In this document: positions 4,566 through 27,644 of the stretch, piece by piece
How positions within the stretch are numbered: the first letter of the stretch is position 1
Layout of the letters: the number at the start of each line of letters is the position of its first letter
Source of the DNA: Peptococcaceae bacterium
Lineage (GTDB): Bacteria > Bacillota > Desulfitobacteriia > Desulfitobacteriales > Syntrophobotulaceae
Length of the DNA: 64,000 bases
Assembly: GCA_009782825.1 (NCBI GenBank)
Contig: WRII01000004.1
Location: 1-64,000 of the forward strand
Direction: 5' to 3'
Program-made: the position numbers and the translations under genes
Notes under the pieces: generated by a model
What the model was told of the DNA's origin: nothing
What the model saw: the letters and a program-made list of their open reading frames with translations, nothing else
Database searches by the model: none

Positions 4566-6128
4566 TTACTCGTTGCCCAGATCCTCGCTCACTTTCACAC
4601 TGACCGTCTCTTCATAGCAGGAGAAGCAGGATTCAACCGCTTTCTTATCCGGCGTCTTTGTCAAGAGACTGACAACCGGCACGATAATAAATCCAGCAAG
4701 CATAACGAACGCTCCGGCGTTAATGGACGATTGTAAAATTGTCGGGAATGCGCTCTTGAAGAAGATATTCAGAATCATAAAAACACTGCTAAAGCCAAAA
4801 CAAGACCAAACAGCGGCTTTACTCACACGTTTCCAATAGAGCCCGTAAAGGAAAGGCGCCAGGAACGATCCGGCCAGAGCCCCCCAGGAAATACCCATAA
4901 GCTGAGCAATAAAATCAATACGCCCTTTAAACTGTATCGTCGCGATAATAGAAGCAATAAGGATAAACACTACAATCAACAAACGAATACTTAAAAGCTG
5001 CCTTTTCTCATCCATTTTCTTGAAGATATTCCCTTTCAGAAAATCCAGCGTAAAAGTCGACGCCGACGTCATGACCAACGCAGAAAGTGTGGAAATAGAT
5101 GCCGAAAGCACCAAAACCACCACAATCCCAATCAGCAGCGCGGGAAAGTTCTCCATCATCTTAGGAACAATGGAGTCAAAATTCGGCGATCCGTTCGCAA
5201 CTCTGTCGATACCCTCCGCGTACAAACGCCCAAAACTGCCGATAAAATAGCTGCCGCCGGCAATCACCAAAGCAAAGACCGTCGATATAACCGCCCCTTT
5301 GAAAATAGTTTTCTCAGATTTAATCGCATAAAACTTCTGTATCATCTGCGGCAGCCCCCAAGTTCCCAAAGACGTGAGAAGGACAACCCCCAGCAAATTC
5401 AACGGATCAGGGCCGAAAAAGGACGTGAAGACACCAGGCGCAGAAGCCGCCGCCGGGTCAGCAGCCTCAGGCTGAACATGAGCCAGAGCGTTGAGGGACG
5501 ACATAAAACCGCCGTGATCATTTAACACAACGCCAATAACCGCTATGATACCCACCAGCATAATGATGCCCTGGATAAAGTCATTGACCGCCGTAGCAAA
5601 ATACCCGCCGGCAATCACATAGATCCCCGTCAAAACCGCCATCGCCACGATACAAATCGTAAAATCTATCCCATAGGCCATGGAGAAAAGCCGGGAAAGC
5701 CCATTGTACAACGAAGCCGTATAGGGAATGAGGAAAACAAAAATAATGACCGAGGCCCCAATTTTTATGGATTTGGAATCAAACCGGGATCCAAAAAATT
5801 CCGGCATCGTCGCGCTGTTCAAATGATGCGTCATAAGCCGCGTGCGCCGACCCAAGATAATCCAAGGCAGCAACGAGCCAATAAGGGCGTTGCCCAACCC
5901 AATCCATACCGCCGCCGTTCCAAATTTCCATCCGAACTGCCCCGCATACCCAACAAAAACCACAGCAGAAAAATACGACGTCCCAAAAGCAAACGCTGTA
6001 AGCCACGGCCCCACAGAACGCCCGCCCAACACAAAATTGTTTACACTTGACGCCCGCTTTCGAAAATAGAGACCAATAAAGATCGTGACAGCAAAAAACA
6101 CCAGCAGCAAAGAAACCTTAATAAACAC
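4566..6128 (-). CDS. sodium:solute symporter (SSS family)
   Basis: This integral membrane protein of about 520 residues has around 13 hydrophobic segments and the SSS-family layout, including the N-terminal SVNNFVLGGRSVGPW region typical of these Na+-coupled carriers. I prefer the GTG at 6128 because AAGGGAG lies eight bases upstream; the in-frame ATG at 6155 touches the T-run of the leader terminator and lacks a Shine-Dalgarno. A T-box leader lies directly upstream and the acyl-CoA ligase directly downstream. The cargo cannot be read from sequence: SSS members carry proline, pantothenate, acetate, sugars and others. The T-box suggests a link to an amino acid. Confidence 0.9.
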   Translation of the reverse strand: MFIKVSLLLVFFAVTIFIGLYFRKRASSVNNFVLGGRSVGPWLTAFAFGTSYFSAVVFVGYAGQFGWKFGTAAVWIGLGNALIGSLLPWIILGRRTRLMTHHLNSATMPEFFGSRFDSKSIKIGASVIIFVFLIPYTASLYNGLSRLFSMAYGIDFTICIVAMAVLTGIYVIAGGYFATAVNDFIQGIIMLVGIIAVIGVVLNDHGGFMSSLNALAHVQPEAADPAAASAPGVFTSFFGPDPLNLLGVVLLTSLGTWGLPQMIQKFYAIKSEKTIFKGAVISTVFALVIAGGSYFIGSFGRLYAEGIDRVANGSPNFDSIVPKMMENFPALLIGIVVVLVLSASISTLSALVMTSASTFTLDFLKGNIFKKMDEKRQLLSIRLLIVVFILIASIIATIQFKGRIDFIAQLMGISWGALAGSFLAPFLYGLYWKRVSKAAVWSCFGFSSVFMILNIFFKSAFPTILQSSINAGAFVMLAGFIIVPVVSLLTKTPDKKAVESCFSCYEETVSVKVSEDLGNE

Positions 6129-6139
6129 TGAGAGCACTC

Positions 6140-6600
6140 CCTTCCTAAGGGGCATATAAAAACGCCCCGGATATTGATTAAATCCGAGGACGACTGCAAC
6201 GCAACCGCGGTACCACCTCAGTTTCGCGCAGCCTCACAGCACGCGCGCTCACAGGGTATTTTCATTTAATCTAAATATCAAATATTAATATACCCCAAAT
6301 GCTGTAACGGGCATACCCGTCGCGTCCTACTTAATGACAATTTCGAGTGTTTGCACTCCTGCAATTCAAACTCCTGCAGTTCAAACTTCTACAGTTCACC
6401 CTTCTGCAGTTCAAACCTCGATTCTTTCTTACACTTGCGCGTCTCGAACCCGTCATTGTTCAAAGCGAAGCTCCCAGGATGTATTCGCTCCCCCGCTCCT
6501 CATCGGCTCGCACCAACCGCCGACTCTCTGAGAAGAGCCGCAGCCCTCCGAGGAGAGCCCCAGATCTGAGAAGATCCATGGAAAGCTACTTGTTCCCGAT
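6140..6600 (-). promoter_or_regulatory. T-box riboswitch leader (tyrosine-type specifier candidate)
   Basis: Read on the minus strand, the leader contains in order: an AGAGAG bulge followed by a TCGGC/GCCGA hairpin (distal stem I); a GAATACATCC context in which UAC (Tyr) sits where a specifier codon is expected; a stem III-like GACGGGTATGCCCGTT; the diagnostic T-box sequence GAGGTGGTACCGCGG (6204-6218), whose UGGU would pair with an ACCA tRNA end; and a terminator hairpin (CGTCCTCGGA/TCCGGGGCG) followed by TTTTT just before the symporter. Uncharged tRNA should stabilise the antiterminator and switch the operon on. T-box identity is solid; the Tyr specifier is my reading of alignment context and less certain. 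A 15-bp tandem array is inserted between stem I and the antiterminator. Confidence 0.9.
6356..6415 (-). repeat. 15-bp tandem array inside the T-box leader
   Basis: Four copies of a 15-bp unit (plus-strand form CTCCTGCAGTTCAAA with a few substitutions) run without gaps between stem I and the stem III/antiterminator part of the T-box. Confidence 0.9.
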
Positions 6601-6628
6601 CATGGCTTTTATAAAGATATCTAAAATC

Positions 6629-6657
6629 ATTATAGGACACAAAGATTGTGTTGTCAA
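6629..6657 (-). promoter_or_regulatory. consensus sigma-A promoter of the T-box operon
   Basis: On the minus strand TTGACA (6652-6657) and TATAAT (6629-6634) are separated by exactly 17 bp, a perfect housekeeping promoter. The spacer contains the dyad ACACAA-TCT-TTGTGT, a possible operator. Confidence 0.85.
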
Positions 6658-6692
6658 AAAAAAATTAAGAAAGAAAAAAAATTAAGAAAGAA

Positions 6693-8792
6693 TCAAGTCC
6701 GGCCAAACCGTTTCTCCAGCTCCTGCCGGGTCAACGGAATCAACACCGGACGGCCATGAGGACAACTATATGGGTTTCGCACCTGTCCCAGCCTGTGCAG
6801 AAGTTCTCCCATTTCCGCCAGACTCAGTGTATCAGAACCCTTAATAGAATTACGGCAGGCCAGGACAAAAATCCACTTTTCCATAAGATCCGGCAAACTG
6901 GGCACAGCCGCAGTGGTGAGCACAGCATCCAAAAACCGATGAAAATACTCTTCAGCGTCCATCTGTCCCGATCCTACAGGGACACCCCGCAGCAGATAAG
7001 TCCTCGTCCCAAACTCTTCCACCAAAAACCCCATTTGCCGCAACTGCGGCAAATACTCCAGCATGGCCTGCTCTTCGCGCAGCGTCAGATGCAGCGCCAA
7101 AGGCGTCAACAGCAACTGGCTGGCCACCTCACTCTGAAGCGCCTGTGCCAAAAACTCTTCATACCGGATTCTCTCGTGGGCAGCATGCTGGTCAATCACA
7201 TAATAAACATCGCCCCCTGCCGCCAAAATATAAGTCTTAAACAATTGCGCCAAAGGGCGCAAGCTCTGAAAAAAAGCTTCATTTTCATTAACCGGCACAG
7301 AAAGTTCAGACGGAAAAAGCTCACGAGGCAAAAGTCTATCCCCGTCTACTGCCTCATCAGCATGCGCTGGCTTTTCAGAACCCTCCCCTTCAGCCTCCCC
7401 AGTCTCCCAAATCTCCCCATCTTCCTCCATCGCCTCTTCTTCTGTAAAAAATTGTGCAATGGAAACCCCTTCCCCAAAATGCACGCGCAAACTATCTTTA
7501 TTCAATATCTTACGAATATCTTGAACAAGGTCAGCTGACATATTCTTTGGCAAAACCTTTTCTGCAAACGTTTTCTGACAAACCTCTTCGGAGACTTTCA
7601 CAGCGGCTTCATTTTTACCTGAATCCATGGATGTATCAGCGTCTTCCCCAGGATTTACCTGGTATTCCTGCGGTGTCTCCGCCACATAATTTTGTGTTGT
7701 GCCGTCTGAGAGTGACGCATCCTTTGACACATCCTTTGACACATCCTTTGGTGTATCCTTTTGAGGCACAGCAAACAATCCCGGCGCAAACCGCGATGAG
7801 TGGGACACCCGCAAAGCCTGCCCCAAAGACTCACGCAAACGCTCAAGAATTTGGCGTTCCTGTTGAAATTTAACCTCAGTTTTCGCCGGATGGACATTGA
7901 CATCAAGCAAGCTCGGATCCAGCTTCAGCACCAGCACCACCACAGGATGCCGCCCTGCGGGCACATGAGTATGATACGCCTCCCGCAGGGCCTGAGCCAG
8001 CACCTTCGCGCGCACCACACGCCCATTGACAATAAACGTCTGAGTGTTTTTCGACGACCGTACAACATGAGGAGGCGAAATAAACCCACCCACAGACAGC
8101 CCCTCATACATGCCCCCCACAGACACAAGAGTTTGAGCCAGCTCCTTGCCCAGCACCTGGCCCAAAACATCCCGCAGATCCCCATTTCCCGGCGTCTGCA
8201 AAATCACACGCTGGGGGTGAGCCAGAGAAAATCCAATATCCGGCCGGGACATAGCCAGCCTGCCCATCATCTCTGAAATCAACCCGAACTCAGTCCCTGC
8301 CGATTTCAGAAACTTCAAACGGGCCGGCACATTGGCAAACAAATTCCGCACCGTCACCGTCGTCCCCGGCGGACATCCACATGTGCCCTGATCCACACAG
8401 ACTCCAGCTTCCCAACGGCAAAAAGATCCCGCCACACTCTCCCTCGGCCGGCTGACAATCTCCATCTCCGCCACAGACGCCATGCTCGGCAGCGCCTCCC
8501 CCCGAAACCCCAAAGTATCCAGGGAAATCAAATCCTCAAAAGCCCCAATCTTACTCGTAGCATGAGGCAGCACCGCCTGGGCAATCTCCTCCTCCGTCAT
8601 TCCCAGGCCATTATCCCGCACCCTGATCAAAGGCACGCCTCCCGCCTCAACCGCCACATCAATCCGGGACGCCTGAGCATCAATAGCATTTTCCAGCAAT
8701 TCCTTGACCACTGAATAAGGGCGCTCAATAACCTCCCCGGCCGCAATTTGATTGATACACCCTTCCGGTAACACATGAATGCGGGACGCCAT
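6693..8792 (-). CDS. mutL: DNA mismatch repair protein MutL
   Basis: This 699-residue MutL has an N-terminal GHKL ATPase (IAAGEVIERPYSVVKELLENAIDA; DNGLGM; GFRGEAL) and a C-terminal dimerisation/endonuclease domain with the metal-binding motif DQHAAHERIRYEE and the later ACRNSIKG and CPHGRP motifs. It is therefore the nicking type typical of bacteria lacking MutH. The start at 8792 is set by GAGGAG six bases upstream. The linker (roughly residues 345-500) is long and holds a 12-bp in-frame array giving KDTPKDVSKDVSKDAS. MutS is not in this window. All key catalytic residues are present, so the protein should be active. Confidence 0.97.
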   Translation of the reverse strand: MASRIHVLPEGCINQIAAGEVIERPYSVVKELLENAIDAQASRIDVAVEAGGVPLIRVRDNGLGMTEEEIAQAVLPHATSKIGAFEDLISLDTLGFRGEALPSMASVAEMEIVSRPRESVAGSFCRWEAGVCVDQGTCGCPPGTTVTVRNLFANVPARLKFLKSAGTEFGLISEMMGRLAMSRPDIGFSLAHPQRVILQTPGNGDLRDVLGQVLGKELAQTLVSVGGMYEGLSVGGFISPPHVVRSSKNTQTFIVNGRVVRAKVLAQALREAYHTHVPAGRHPVVVLVLKLDPSLLDVNVHPAKTEVKFQQERQILERLRESLGQALRVSHSSRFAPGLFAVPQKDTPKDVSKDVSKDASLSDGTTQNYVAETPQEYQVNPGEDADTSMDSGKNEAAVKVSEEVCQKTFAEKVLPKNMSADLVQDIRKILNKDSLRVHFGEGVSIAQFFTEEEAMEEDGEIWETGEAEGEGSEKPAHADEAVDGDRLLPRELFPSELSVPVNENEAFFQSLRPLAQLFKTYILAAGGDVYYVIDQHAAHERIRYEEFLAQALQSEVASQLLLTPLALHLTLREEQAMLEYLPQLRQMGFLVEEFGTRTYLLRGVPVGSGQMDAEEYFHRFLDAVLTTAAVPSLPDLMEKWIFVLACRNSIKGSDTLSLAEMGELLHRLGQVRNPYSCPHGRPVLIPLTRQELEKRFGRT
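7714..7761 (-). repeat. 12-bp in-frame tandem array in mutL
   Basis: Four copies of GACACATCCTTT-type units encode repeated KDVS/KDAS residues in the flexible linker of MutL. Confidence 0.9.
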
Positions 8793-22740: not shown

Positions 22741-23100
22741 CTATTCTTCCGCGTCTTCAATCATTCGGCGAAGCTCTCCGGCTTCCCCCGCAGACAGTTT
22801 CCTGTCCTGTAAGAATGTTGCCAAAAGCGTAGGCAGTGACCCGTCAAAGGTGCGGTTAAGCAAGGCTTCGCCTTCATATTTCTGGACTTGTTCATTTGTA
22901 ACTAACGATGTTACTATTGTGTTGACATTCTGAAGAACTCCCCGGTCACAGAGCTTTTTGAGCACTGTATAAGTTGTTGATTTTTTCCAGCCCAAGCGTT
23001 TATGGCAAATCTTCACAAGCTCGGTGGAATTGATGGGTTCAACTTCCCAGATAATCGTCGCAAACCTGTATTCAGCATCAAATAATTTGTATTTGTCCAT
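22741..23100 (-). CDS. BlaI/MecI/CopY family transcriptional repressor
   Basis: This 119-residue protein shows the family's winged helix (GWKKSTTYTVLKKLCDRGVL, the recognition region) and a C-terminal dimerisation helix (DRKLSAGEAGELRRMIEDA). Such repressors usually pair with a BlaR1-type membrane protease or a copper pump, but neither is adjacent; hpt follows 58 bp downstream. The dyad-rich spacer upstream could hold its operator, but I could not define one. Confidence 0.9.
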   Translation of the reverse strand: MDKYKLFDAEYRFATIIWEVEPINSTELVKICHKRLGWKKSTTYTVLKKLCDRGVLQNVNTIVTSLVTNEQVQKYEGEALLNRTFDGSLPTLLATFLQDRKLSAGEAGELRRMIEDAEE

Positions 23101-23216: not shown

Positions 23217-23256
23217 ACACATATTGACACATATTGACACCTTATATTGACACCTG
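23217..23256. repeat. tandem array ACATATTGAC that multiplies TTGACA
   Basis: Three or four copies of about 10-14 bp; each carries a TTGACA -35-like hexamer. It lies directly upstream of the VWA/PotD hybrid gene. Confidence 0.9.
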
Positions 23257-23274
23257 TCGCATAAATGCTACAAT
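23247..23274 (+). promoter_or_regulatory. probable sigma-A promoter of the VWA/PotD hybrid gene
   Basis: TTGACA (23247-23252), 16-bp spacer, TACAAT (23269-23274), 35 bp before the TTG start. The -35 box is the last copy of the tandem array. Confidence 0.65.
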
Positions 23275-23309
23275 TATTTTATAGAATCTGTGAAAAGGGG
23301 GACAAAAGA

Positions 23310-25746
23310 TTGAAGAAATCTAACATCGTTATACTTGGTGTCATTGCGGTCGTGGTATTCGGAATCATTTTTGGAATTGTCTCATTTACGGAAAATTGGG
23401 GCAAAAGCAGAGACCAAGTTGACACCGAAGCCGCCATGAAAAATCTAGACAGACTGTACTCCCAACTCAATATCAGCAAACCAACCCCGAAAAAAGACGC
23501 CGATTATCAAGACACAGATGAAAACGCCGAAAAAATCGCGGTGTTACCCGACATCGGAGAGTATCCCTTCGTCGTCAATCCCACGACAGACAATTTTCTG
23601 ACGATCTACTCCTCATTGGAAAAAATCGATTGGCTGATCGAAGCCGCGAATAAATTCAACCAAAGCGCTCCAACGGCCGACAACCATCCTATATCCGTAG
23701 GCATACGCGCCATTCCCGGCAATTTGGGCGCGGATTTCATATCCTCCGACAAATACAGACCAGACGTCTACGCACCGTCAAGCGAAATCTACGGCGACAT
23801 GCTGATCGGTCAAGGCGTCAAAGCCGCCTTAGTCGAAAAAAGCCTTGCCGGTAACCTGACCGGCGTGGTCATGACCCAGAAAATGAATGACGACCTCACC
23901 AACAAATACGGCGCCCTGAACAGCGAAACAATCATCGAAGCTGTCTTGAACAACGGACTCACCCTGGGGTACACAACACCCCTGTCCAACGAAGACGGAT
24001 TCAATTTCATCTTGACGCTGCTGGCCGACTCCGACAGCAACAACCCGTTGAGCGACAACGCCATAGAAAGACTGCGGAAATTTCAAGACAAAATTCCGTT
24101 CATCTCATATGACATCGACCAGCTAAAAGCGTCTCTAACCGGCGGCGCCTTAGACGCCATCATACTGAACCATCAGGCCTACACGAACTCACCCAACCTA
24201 GCAGGCCATTACACCTTTGTGCCGATCGGAATCCGACAAGACAACCCCGTTTATGAAATCGGTGACCTGTCCGCCCTCAAAAAACAGATAACCGCCCAAT
24301 TCATAGCGTTCTGCAAGAACCCTGACTCACAAAAATCCGCCGCCGAAAAAGGGTTCAACAACTTACAAGACTACGTCGGCGCCGCCCCCATGAACGGCAC
24401 AACAATCCTGCAAGCCCAAGAAATCTACAAAAAAGAAAAGAACGGTTCCAGCGATCTGACCGCCGTATTCGTCGCCGATATCTCTGGCAGTATGGAAGGC
24501 TCTCCCCTCTTGAACCTAAAAGCAAGCCTGAACCGCGCGGCCGGCATAATAGACTCAAACACAAACATCGGGCTGGTCACCTTTTCGGACACCGTCACCA
24601 TCGACGTGCCCATAGCGAAATTTGACAACACCCAAAGATCGTACTTCTCCAACGCCGTAAAATCCATGCGTGCCAGCGGCAGCACAGCGATGTTTGACGC
24701 CATCGTAGTCGCGCAAAAAAATGCTTATGGACGCAAAAAGCCGCAATCCTAACACCAAGCTGATGCTCTTCGTCCTGACTGACGGCGAATCAAACCGCGG
24801 CTTCGTTTTCAAAGATATTGAGAACATAGCCAAAGGAACCAGAATCCCCATCTACACCATAGGGTACAACGCGGATCTCGATGTTCTGCAAGAACTATCC
24901 GACATCAACGAAGATATGTATGATGGCATCACCAAAAACCCTAACTCGTATGATGTCTTGGTACCCTCCGACTACACCATTGACCGCCTGATTAAAGAAG
25001 GAAACCTGGCCAAGATCGAAAGAGACAAAGTCCCCAACATCGCCAATGTTGCAGAAGAATATCTCAGTCCCGCCTACGATCCTGACAACGATTACGTTGT
25101 GCCCTATATGGTAGGAACTTTAGGCATCCTTTACAACAAAAAACAGGTTACAGAACCTGTTGACAGCTGGAACGTGTTGCTGGATTCCCGATACAGCGGA
25201 AAAACCTTGATGCTGGACTCTCAACGAGACATGATTGGCGCCACGCTAAAAATGCTGGGATACAGCATGAATTCAAGCGATGACTCCGAATTAGCCCAAG
25301 CCAAATCCAGTTTATCGACCATGCGATCCCTTGCCCAATCCCGCAATGAAAGTGACGAAATCCTCGACAAACTGGTCGCCGGCGAAGGAATTATGGGTGT
25401 TGTCTACTCAGGCGACGCCAAAATCGCCATAGACAGGAATCCCAATTTAGCCTACGTGATTCCAAGCGAGGGATCCAACAAATGGGTTGACGGATTCGTT
25501 ATTTTGAAAAACACCCAGCACGCTGAAGCGGCGCAGAAATTCATTAACTTTATGTGCCGTCCCAATATAGCGGTCCGAAACATGTCGACAATCGGTTACA
25601 CCTCGTCGATCAAAGGCGCCTGGTTCGAGTTCAATGAGAATAAAATCATGTTCCCGTCAGCGGAAGAGCTTGGACGCTGCGAGGCGTTTCTATACGACGC
25701 CCAAGCTACGCAGAAATACTCGAAGCTATGGTTAGAGATTCGTTGA
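23310..25746 (+). pseudogene. membrane-anchored binding-protein/VWA protein joined to a PotD-like domain; frameshifted
   Basis: Translation from a TTG start (AAAGGGGG upstream) gives one N-terminal membrane anchor, a periplasmic-binding-like region (about residues 50-370), then a von Willebrand A domain with the MIDAS motif DISGSM. The frame stops at 24752, but the VWA domain continues in another frame from about 24719: dropping one A from the A7 run at 24714-24720 joins them perfectly and restores the next VWA element FVLTDGES. Around 24900-24915 the VWA sequence (LQELSDINE) runs straight into a PotD-type polyamine-binding protein lacking its signal peptide and first strands (SYDVLVPSDYTIDRL, then PYMVGTLGILYN, to the PotD C-terminus). 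It therefore looks like a deletion fusion of a VWA gene with a potD gene, plus a homopolymer frameshift. Expression may rely on slippage, or the gene may be dead. Confidence 0.8.
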
Positions 25747-26376: not shown

Positions 26377-27588
26377 TCAATTCTCCTTATCATTATCATC
26401 AGAATGATCTCCCTTGGGGACAGATATGAATATCTTGAACCCTTTATCCTGTTCCGTACGAAAAATCCCGCCAAGAGCCTCCACGCGGTCAGCCATGTTC
26501 CTTAGCCCGATCCCCACCGGGAATCCATCCGCCTTGGCTTTATCCGCCTTGGCTTTATCCGCCTTGGCTTTATCCACCTTGGATCTATCCACCGTGGAGA
26601 CATTCCGGGCAGTTCCGTTGTCTCCAATAATCATCTGGCAGAACGCGGGATGCTCAGTTACAGTGATATAAGCCTCCGTGGCATGGCTATGCCTTGCAAT
26701 ATTGCTGAGGGCTTCTCGCACAATAGAAGCAAAGCAGTATTTTAGAGCGCCGGGCAGCTCTCCGGCATCATAACGCAATTTGACCGGACAAAACTTGAAT
26801 CCGTTGATCATGGTCTCCAGCTGAACTCTAAGATCAACGGAGTCATCATGCAAGTCATGGACACTGTTTCGGATGCTGTCCATAGCATCCGACAGCGTTC
26901 CTTTGATCAAATCCACTTCATTAACCAAGCTGCCATCTTCAGTACGGGCCACGCGCAGGGCCCCGAGCTGCAAAATGGAGCGCGTCAGCAAATGACCGAC
27001 ATTATCGTGTATCTCCCGAGCAATACGATTGCGTTCCGCCAGCGTTGCCAGCCGTATTTCGTAGTCCTGTCTCTCCATCAGGTCACGGTTCTTCTGTTCC
27101 ATAAACGCAGCTCGTTCCTTTGTATCGTCCGTCAGCGCAAAAAACTCACTGCGGATTCTTAGGTGAGCAGATGTCCTGTATTGCAGCAGGAAGGCTGCTC
27201 CCGAGGCACAAACAACAACCGCCGGGAGGTGCAAATTCCCCGCGAACAAACAGGCCGGCAGCGCCACAATCCAACAAAGCCGCAATACCCATTTACGTAT
27301 ACGCAAAGGTCCTTCACCTGCGAGGTTTGTGAAGCTCGTACTTCCTCCGGCGCAGTCGTAAACAATCAATGGCAGAAAAGCAACACATTCGGGCACACAT
27401 AAACATAGCGCGATATAGAAAACGCACAAATACACCGGAATCTTGTTTTCAAAATAACTGTTTAATGAACTGACAGCCACCGCCCCAAGCACAGTAATAA
27501 CAGAAATCCATTGGATATCTGTGAAAGACAGCGCCAGAAGGCACAGCCCGAATAATATCAGCTTGTCAATCAAAATCAATATGTGCAT
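26377..27588 (-). CDS. sensor histidine kinase (HisKA_3 type)
   Basis: The protein of about 403 residues has an N-terminal hydrophobic sensor part with about five to six membrane segments, a HisKA_3 phosphoacceptor (AERNRIAREIHDNVGHLL) and a GHKL ATPase (N box near EALSNIARHS, DNGTARN, GIGLRNMADRV). Its ATP-lid region, between the DNG and GIGLRNM boxes, carries a five-residue tandem array (DKAKA units), an unusual place for an expansion. Such kinases of the DesK/LiaS class often sense envelope stress or lipids. The ATG at 27588 is preferred. Confidence 0.92.
   Translation of the reverse strand: MHILILIDKLILFGLCLLALSFTDIQWISVITVLGAVAVSSLNSYFENKIPVYLCVFYIALCLCVPECVAFLPLIVYDCAGGSTSFTNLAGEGPLRIRKWVLRLCWIVALPACLFAGNLHLPAVVVCASGAAFLLQYRTSAHLRIRSEFFALTDDTKERAAFMEQKNRDLMERQDYEIRLATLAERNRIAREIHDNVGHLLTRSILQLGALRVARTEDGSLVNEVDLIKGTLSDAMDSIRNSVHDLHDDSVDLRVQLETMINGFKFCPVKLRYDAGELPGALKYCFASIVREALSNIARHSHATEAYITVTEHPAFCQMIIGDNGTARNVSTVDRSKVDKAKADKAKADKAKADGFPVGIGLRNMADRVEALGGIFRTEQDKGFKIFISVPKGDHSDDNDKEN
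26525..26595 (-). repeat. 15-bp in-frame tandem array in the histidine kinase ATP lid
   Basis: About five copies of TTATCCGCCTTGGCT-type units (plus-strand view) encode repeated DKAKA residues. Confidence 0.92.
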
Positions 27589-27644
27589 ACACGCTCTGTT
27601 CCTTTTTAGGGGCTGTAAGTCATTATAGCATATCACTGGGGAAC

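Follow-up and report, generated by a model that had tools for sequence, protein, structure and literature searches.

The window, which is the whole 64,000-nucleotide stretch of DNA that was analysed, includes a VWA gene joined to the core of a PotD-like gene. This locus is probably a VWA/PotD-like gene pair in decay, altered by a short-repeat deletion and a frameshift. It is best read as a pseudogene of recent origin, and an intact VWA-TelA copy is retained at another place in the genome.

Reading frames and junction of the fused locus

The locus is divided into two ORFs that are read in different frames (Table 1). In tblastn comparisons residues 1-476 of the VWA protein from a related locus, L045, matched nucleotides 23310-24719 within ORF1, and the frame changes at residue 475/476 of that protein, at a run of seven A's; the VWA domain of L045, which has six A's at this site, reads uninterrupted through it. 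The VWA gene is therefore split upstream of the join, a feature absent from the first-pass annotation. ORF1, which probably starts with the TTG at 23310, has an N-terminal membrane segment as seen by reading of the sequence. A search against Pfam and NCBIfam identified VWA in residues 5-64 of ORF2 with 22.2 bits, slightly below the cut-off because that frame holds only half of the domain; from about residue 54 onward the match is to a binding protein of the PotD type. A complete single-frame VWA domain is absent, its halves being distributed over the two ORFs and its last 23 residues being lost.

The first-pass annotation had described an in-frame passage from the end of a VWA domain (LQELSDINE) to a PotD core without its signal peptide. 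This passage is present, as determined by tblastn with the separate L045 proteins and by the Pfam and NCBIfam matches. The L045 VWA match reaches 24912 and the L045 PotD match starts at 24907, the 6-base overlap being AACGAA, read in frame as AAC GAA, and the join peptide of ORF2 crosses LQELSDINEDMYDGI. When compared to the L045 proteins, the last 23 residues of VWA and the first 82 residues of PotD are missing at the join. In L045, where both genes are separate and adjacent, two AACGA(A/G)G sites are located 376 bp apart. The proposals that the fusion arose by deletion and that a short sequence shared at the NE codons took part in it, at least AACGA being common to both genes, were supported by these comparisons, and a short-repeat deletion as the probable origin of the join is well supported. 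Both genes read the repeat as Asn-Glu in one and the same phase, so the in-frame product can be explained without selection.

Other characteristics of the surrounding DNA include three close copies of TATTGACAC at 23225-23256, located 5' of and overlapping the promoter-like site of the VWA gene, and a divergent BlaI/CopY-family (Penicillinase_R) repressor gene (22741-23100, minus strand) directly upstream of the broken VWA gene, which this repressor might regulate. A 15-base tandem repeat at 26530-26590 encodes repeated DKAKA inside a sensor kinase ORF (26377-27636, minus strand).

Table 1. Features of the fused VWA/PotD-like locus
Feature	Positions	Strand	Basis
Sigma-70-like promoter 5' of the VWA gene, TTGACA-16-TACAAT, -10 preceded by TG (consensus match only)	23247-23274	+	Consensus scan, 11 of 12 matches
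Ribosome-binding-site-like AAGGGGG, 8 bases 5' of the TTG at 23310	23295-23301	+	Direct reading of the sequence
ORF1: membrane anchor, SBP_bac_11 and first VWA half, then out-of-frame codons to the stop	23310-24752	+	Translation, Pfam
Run of seven A's (A7), +1 frameshift inside the VWA domain	24715-24721	+	Sequence, comparison with L045
ORF2: second VWA half joined to the PotD-like core	24721-25746	+	Translation, Pfam, NCBIfam
Deletion junction AACGAA (Asn-Glu), common to both parent genes	24907-24912	+	Overlap of L045 VWA and PotD matches; L045 AACGA(A/G)G sites
PotD-like core without signal peptide and first beta-alpha-beta (L045 PotD residues 1-82)	24907-25743	+	tblastn, alignment, models, tree

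Related loci and the VWA-centred gene set

Locus L045 (WRHM01000014.1), from a MAG labelled Oscillospiraceae bacterium, includes a VWA gene (4573-6264, 563 aa) and a PotD-like gene (6317-7393, 358 aa) that are back to back in the same order and strand as in the window, and whose products are 64-74% (VWA) and 73% (PotD) identical to the window parts. Unlike the window, L045 has both genes intact with no frameshift and an XpaC-like gene upstream, giving the order XpaC, VWA, PotD, without TelA. A second unfused VWA/PotD-like pair, also without TelA, was found in L050, where the XpaC queries gave no match to the upstream gene (264 aa). In four other loci (L046-L049) the order is XpaC-like, SBP+VWA, TelA, PotD-like; the VWA and PotD-like proteins are homologous to the window parts, but TelA is located between them and every gene is intact. 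The genome harboring the fused locus has an intact second locus on contig C22 with XpaC-like, VWA, and TelA genes and without PotD; the XpaC and TelA queries both matched this contig and had no match in the window. The Pfam family XpaC (Halogen_Hydrol) was assigned to the L045 protein only, and the 244-246-amino acid proteins of L046 and C22, which have no Pfam match, are referred to as XpaC-like on the basis of position, size, and mutual homology.

The window PotD and the six VWA-linked proteins of L045-L050 form one clade (100/100) that leaves the PotABCD-linked proteins outside, and a homologous VWA part is found immediately upstream of the window PotD, fused to it. The fetched flanks of L045-L050 (up to 6 kb per side) yielded no PotC homologue, while nearly all other PotD loci in the same scan have PotC just upstream. 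The PotC query had no match within the window and a single weak one (E 1e-5, 31%) in the rest of this genome, which is about 95% complete and in which no second PotD was found. The PotD-like gene is therefore the member of a VWA-centred set that encodes the binding protein. The expectation that relatives would have separate VWA and potABCD loci held in part: the VWA and PotD-like genes are separate neighbours in L045 and L050, but the PotD-like gene lies outside potABCD, and the tree together with the gene context rules out the potABCD origin implied for it. On contig C28 a match to the PotA family was rejected as potABCD, its neighbourhood being that of a sugar-type ABC transporter.

A permease-free set consisting of XpaC-like, SBP+VWA, TelA, and in some cases an orphan PotD-like gene recurs among these loci (L046:2082-6834, L045:3760-7393, L040:2937-6624). 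A literature search found no description of a combined XpaC/TelA/VWA operon or of the four-gene set. An operon of the XpaC/TelA type in Listeria has been considered in connection with tolerance of nisin and tellurite (PMC12791056). That no transporter permease is nearby suggests that the PotD-like protein, rather than supplying an importer, may present a ligand to the system of VWA and TelA, and the full gene set may sense envelope stress.

Predicted fold of the PotD-like part

Structure prediction of the fused protein had been proposed as a check, and it was done on ORF2 using AlphaFold. The PotD core was well modelled (mostly pLDDT > 90, TM about 0.75-0.82 to PotD structures), but the VWA piece upstream of it averaged < 60 confidence, a low value that is partly expected because the alignment contained no VWA rows. 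In the model of the intact L045 PotD, the predicted beta1 (48-55), alpha1 (61-71), and beta2 (73-80) are all located inside the 82 residues absent from the fusion. Also lost with this stretch is the YNxGEY loop; the corresponding loop of E. coli PotD touches the ligand (Trp34, Tyr37). The window PotD does not include a complete periplasmic-binding fold with an export signal. The extra A places the anchor half and the PotD half in different frames, and consequently the sequence as it stands does not encode a tethered fusion. The idea that the VWA anchor tethers a polyamine-binding domain fails on this separation and on the deletion of the first beta-alpha-beta.

Proposed history and alternative readings

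The differences with respect to L045 are mostly at third codon positions (0.61 for VWA and 0.59 for PotD; 40 of 62 third positions differ in the VWA tail), and all but one of the 44 strongly conserved PotD columns are retained. GC3 is 0.58-0.64, near that of the C22 VWA gene of the same host (0.545), and in a dN/dS comparison dS was saturated against the nearest relative. The third-position bias, the GC3, and the retention of conserved PotD positions indicate that both lesions arose late compared with the divergence from L045, and any loss of function would be recent.

The ancestor would have had a gene for a membrane-anchored SBP+VWA protein and, directly after it, one for a secreted PotD-like protein, as in L045. 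Slippage or other short-homology recombination between two AACGA(A/G)G copies then probably removed about 0.38 kb, a single deletion that would take from VWA its last 23 residues and stop codon, from PotD its first 82 residues, and the spacer between the two genes. Either before or after this deletion an extra A would have been gained in the VWA domain, breaking the frame, so that the product as sequenced would be truncated and would contain only one half of the VWA domain, and the second VWA half with the PotD core would lack an anchor, a signal peptide, and any evident ribosome-binding site. What speaks against decay is that the gene is clean apart from the two lesions and that the predicted PotD core still models well; in addition, the extra A could stem from sequencing or assembly or be a variant at the strain level.

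If the extra A were a sequencing error, a minority variant, or a phase-variable tract, the locus could encode a functional anchored SBP-VWA-SBP chain. This reading, which we consider unlikely, agrees with both halves being open and conserved up to the lesions, the in-frame join, the retained strong promoter-like site, and the good model predicted for the PotD core. However, the frame is broken as sequenced, and programmed -1 frameshifting at the A run is ruled out because entry into ORF2 requires a net +1, so that a -1 ribosomal slip misses its frame. Moreover, the binding fold would be without beta1, alpha1, and beta2, including the N-terminal ligand-side loop, and the fusion was found in no other genome searched. 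A particular version, in which slippage at A7 switches the production of one anchored SBP-VWA-SBP protein and the deletion thus built a phase-variable envelope sensor, is remote.

An assembly artefact joining two genes is very improbable: the assembly is fragmented (119 contigs), but L045 and L050 truly carry the two genes side by side, in this order and orientation, and the repeat of just 5-8 bases is far under the overlap length of an assembler. Even less can be said for an ancient conserved VWA-PotD fusion family, since every related genome with either gene has an unfused copy, and an ancient fused protein is ruled out as far as the collections reach. Had the fusion been old, the same full architecture would be expected in many species, but no fused orthologue was found: the query P0002 detected no second fused copy in the own genome, 60 relatives, 74 order genomes, or 83 class genomes, and none was found by a scan of 84,980 species with peptide patterns including the junction DINEDMYD, which relies on exact patterns and could let a diverged fusion escape.

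The event at this locus, an operon pair probably fused by a short-repeat deletion and also frameshifted, is real, if ordinary. Such an in-frame fusion documents a step of gene decay, and annotation could take its product for a novel architecture. Of more use is what the analysis found behind it, the recurring operon with XpaC-like, SBP+VWA, in some cases TelA, and PotD-like genes, without a permease nearby. As for known systems, the window PotD has the fold and the core sequence family in common with the PotD of the PotABCD spermidine/putrescine importer (e.g. PDB 1pot, 4eqb), from which it differs in the lack of the N-terminal 82 residues, the absence of an adjacent potC, and its position outside the PotABCD-linked clade.
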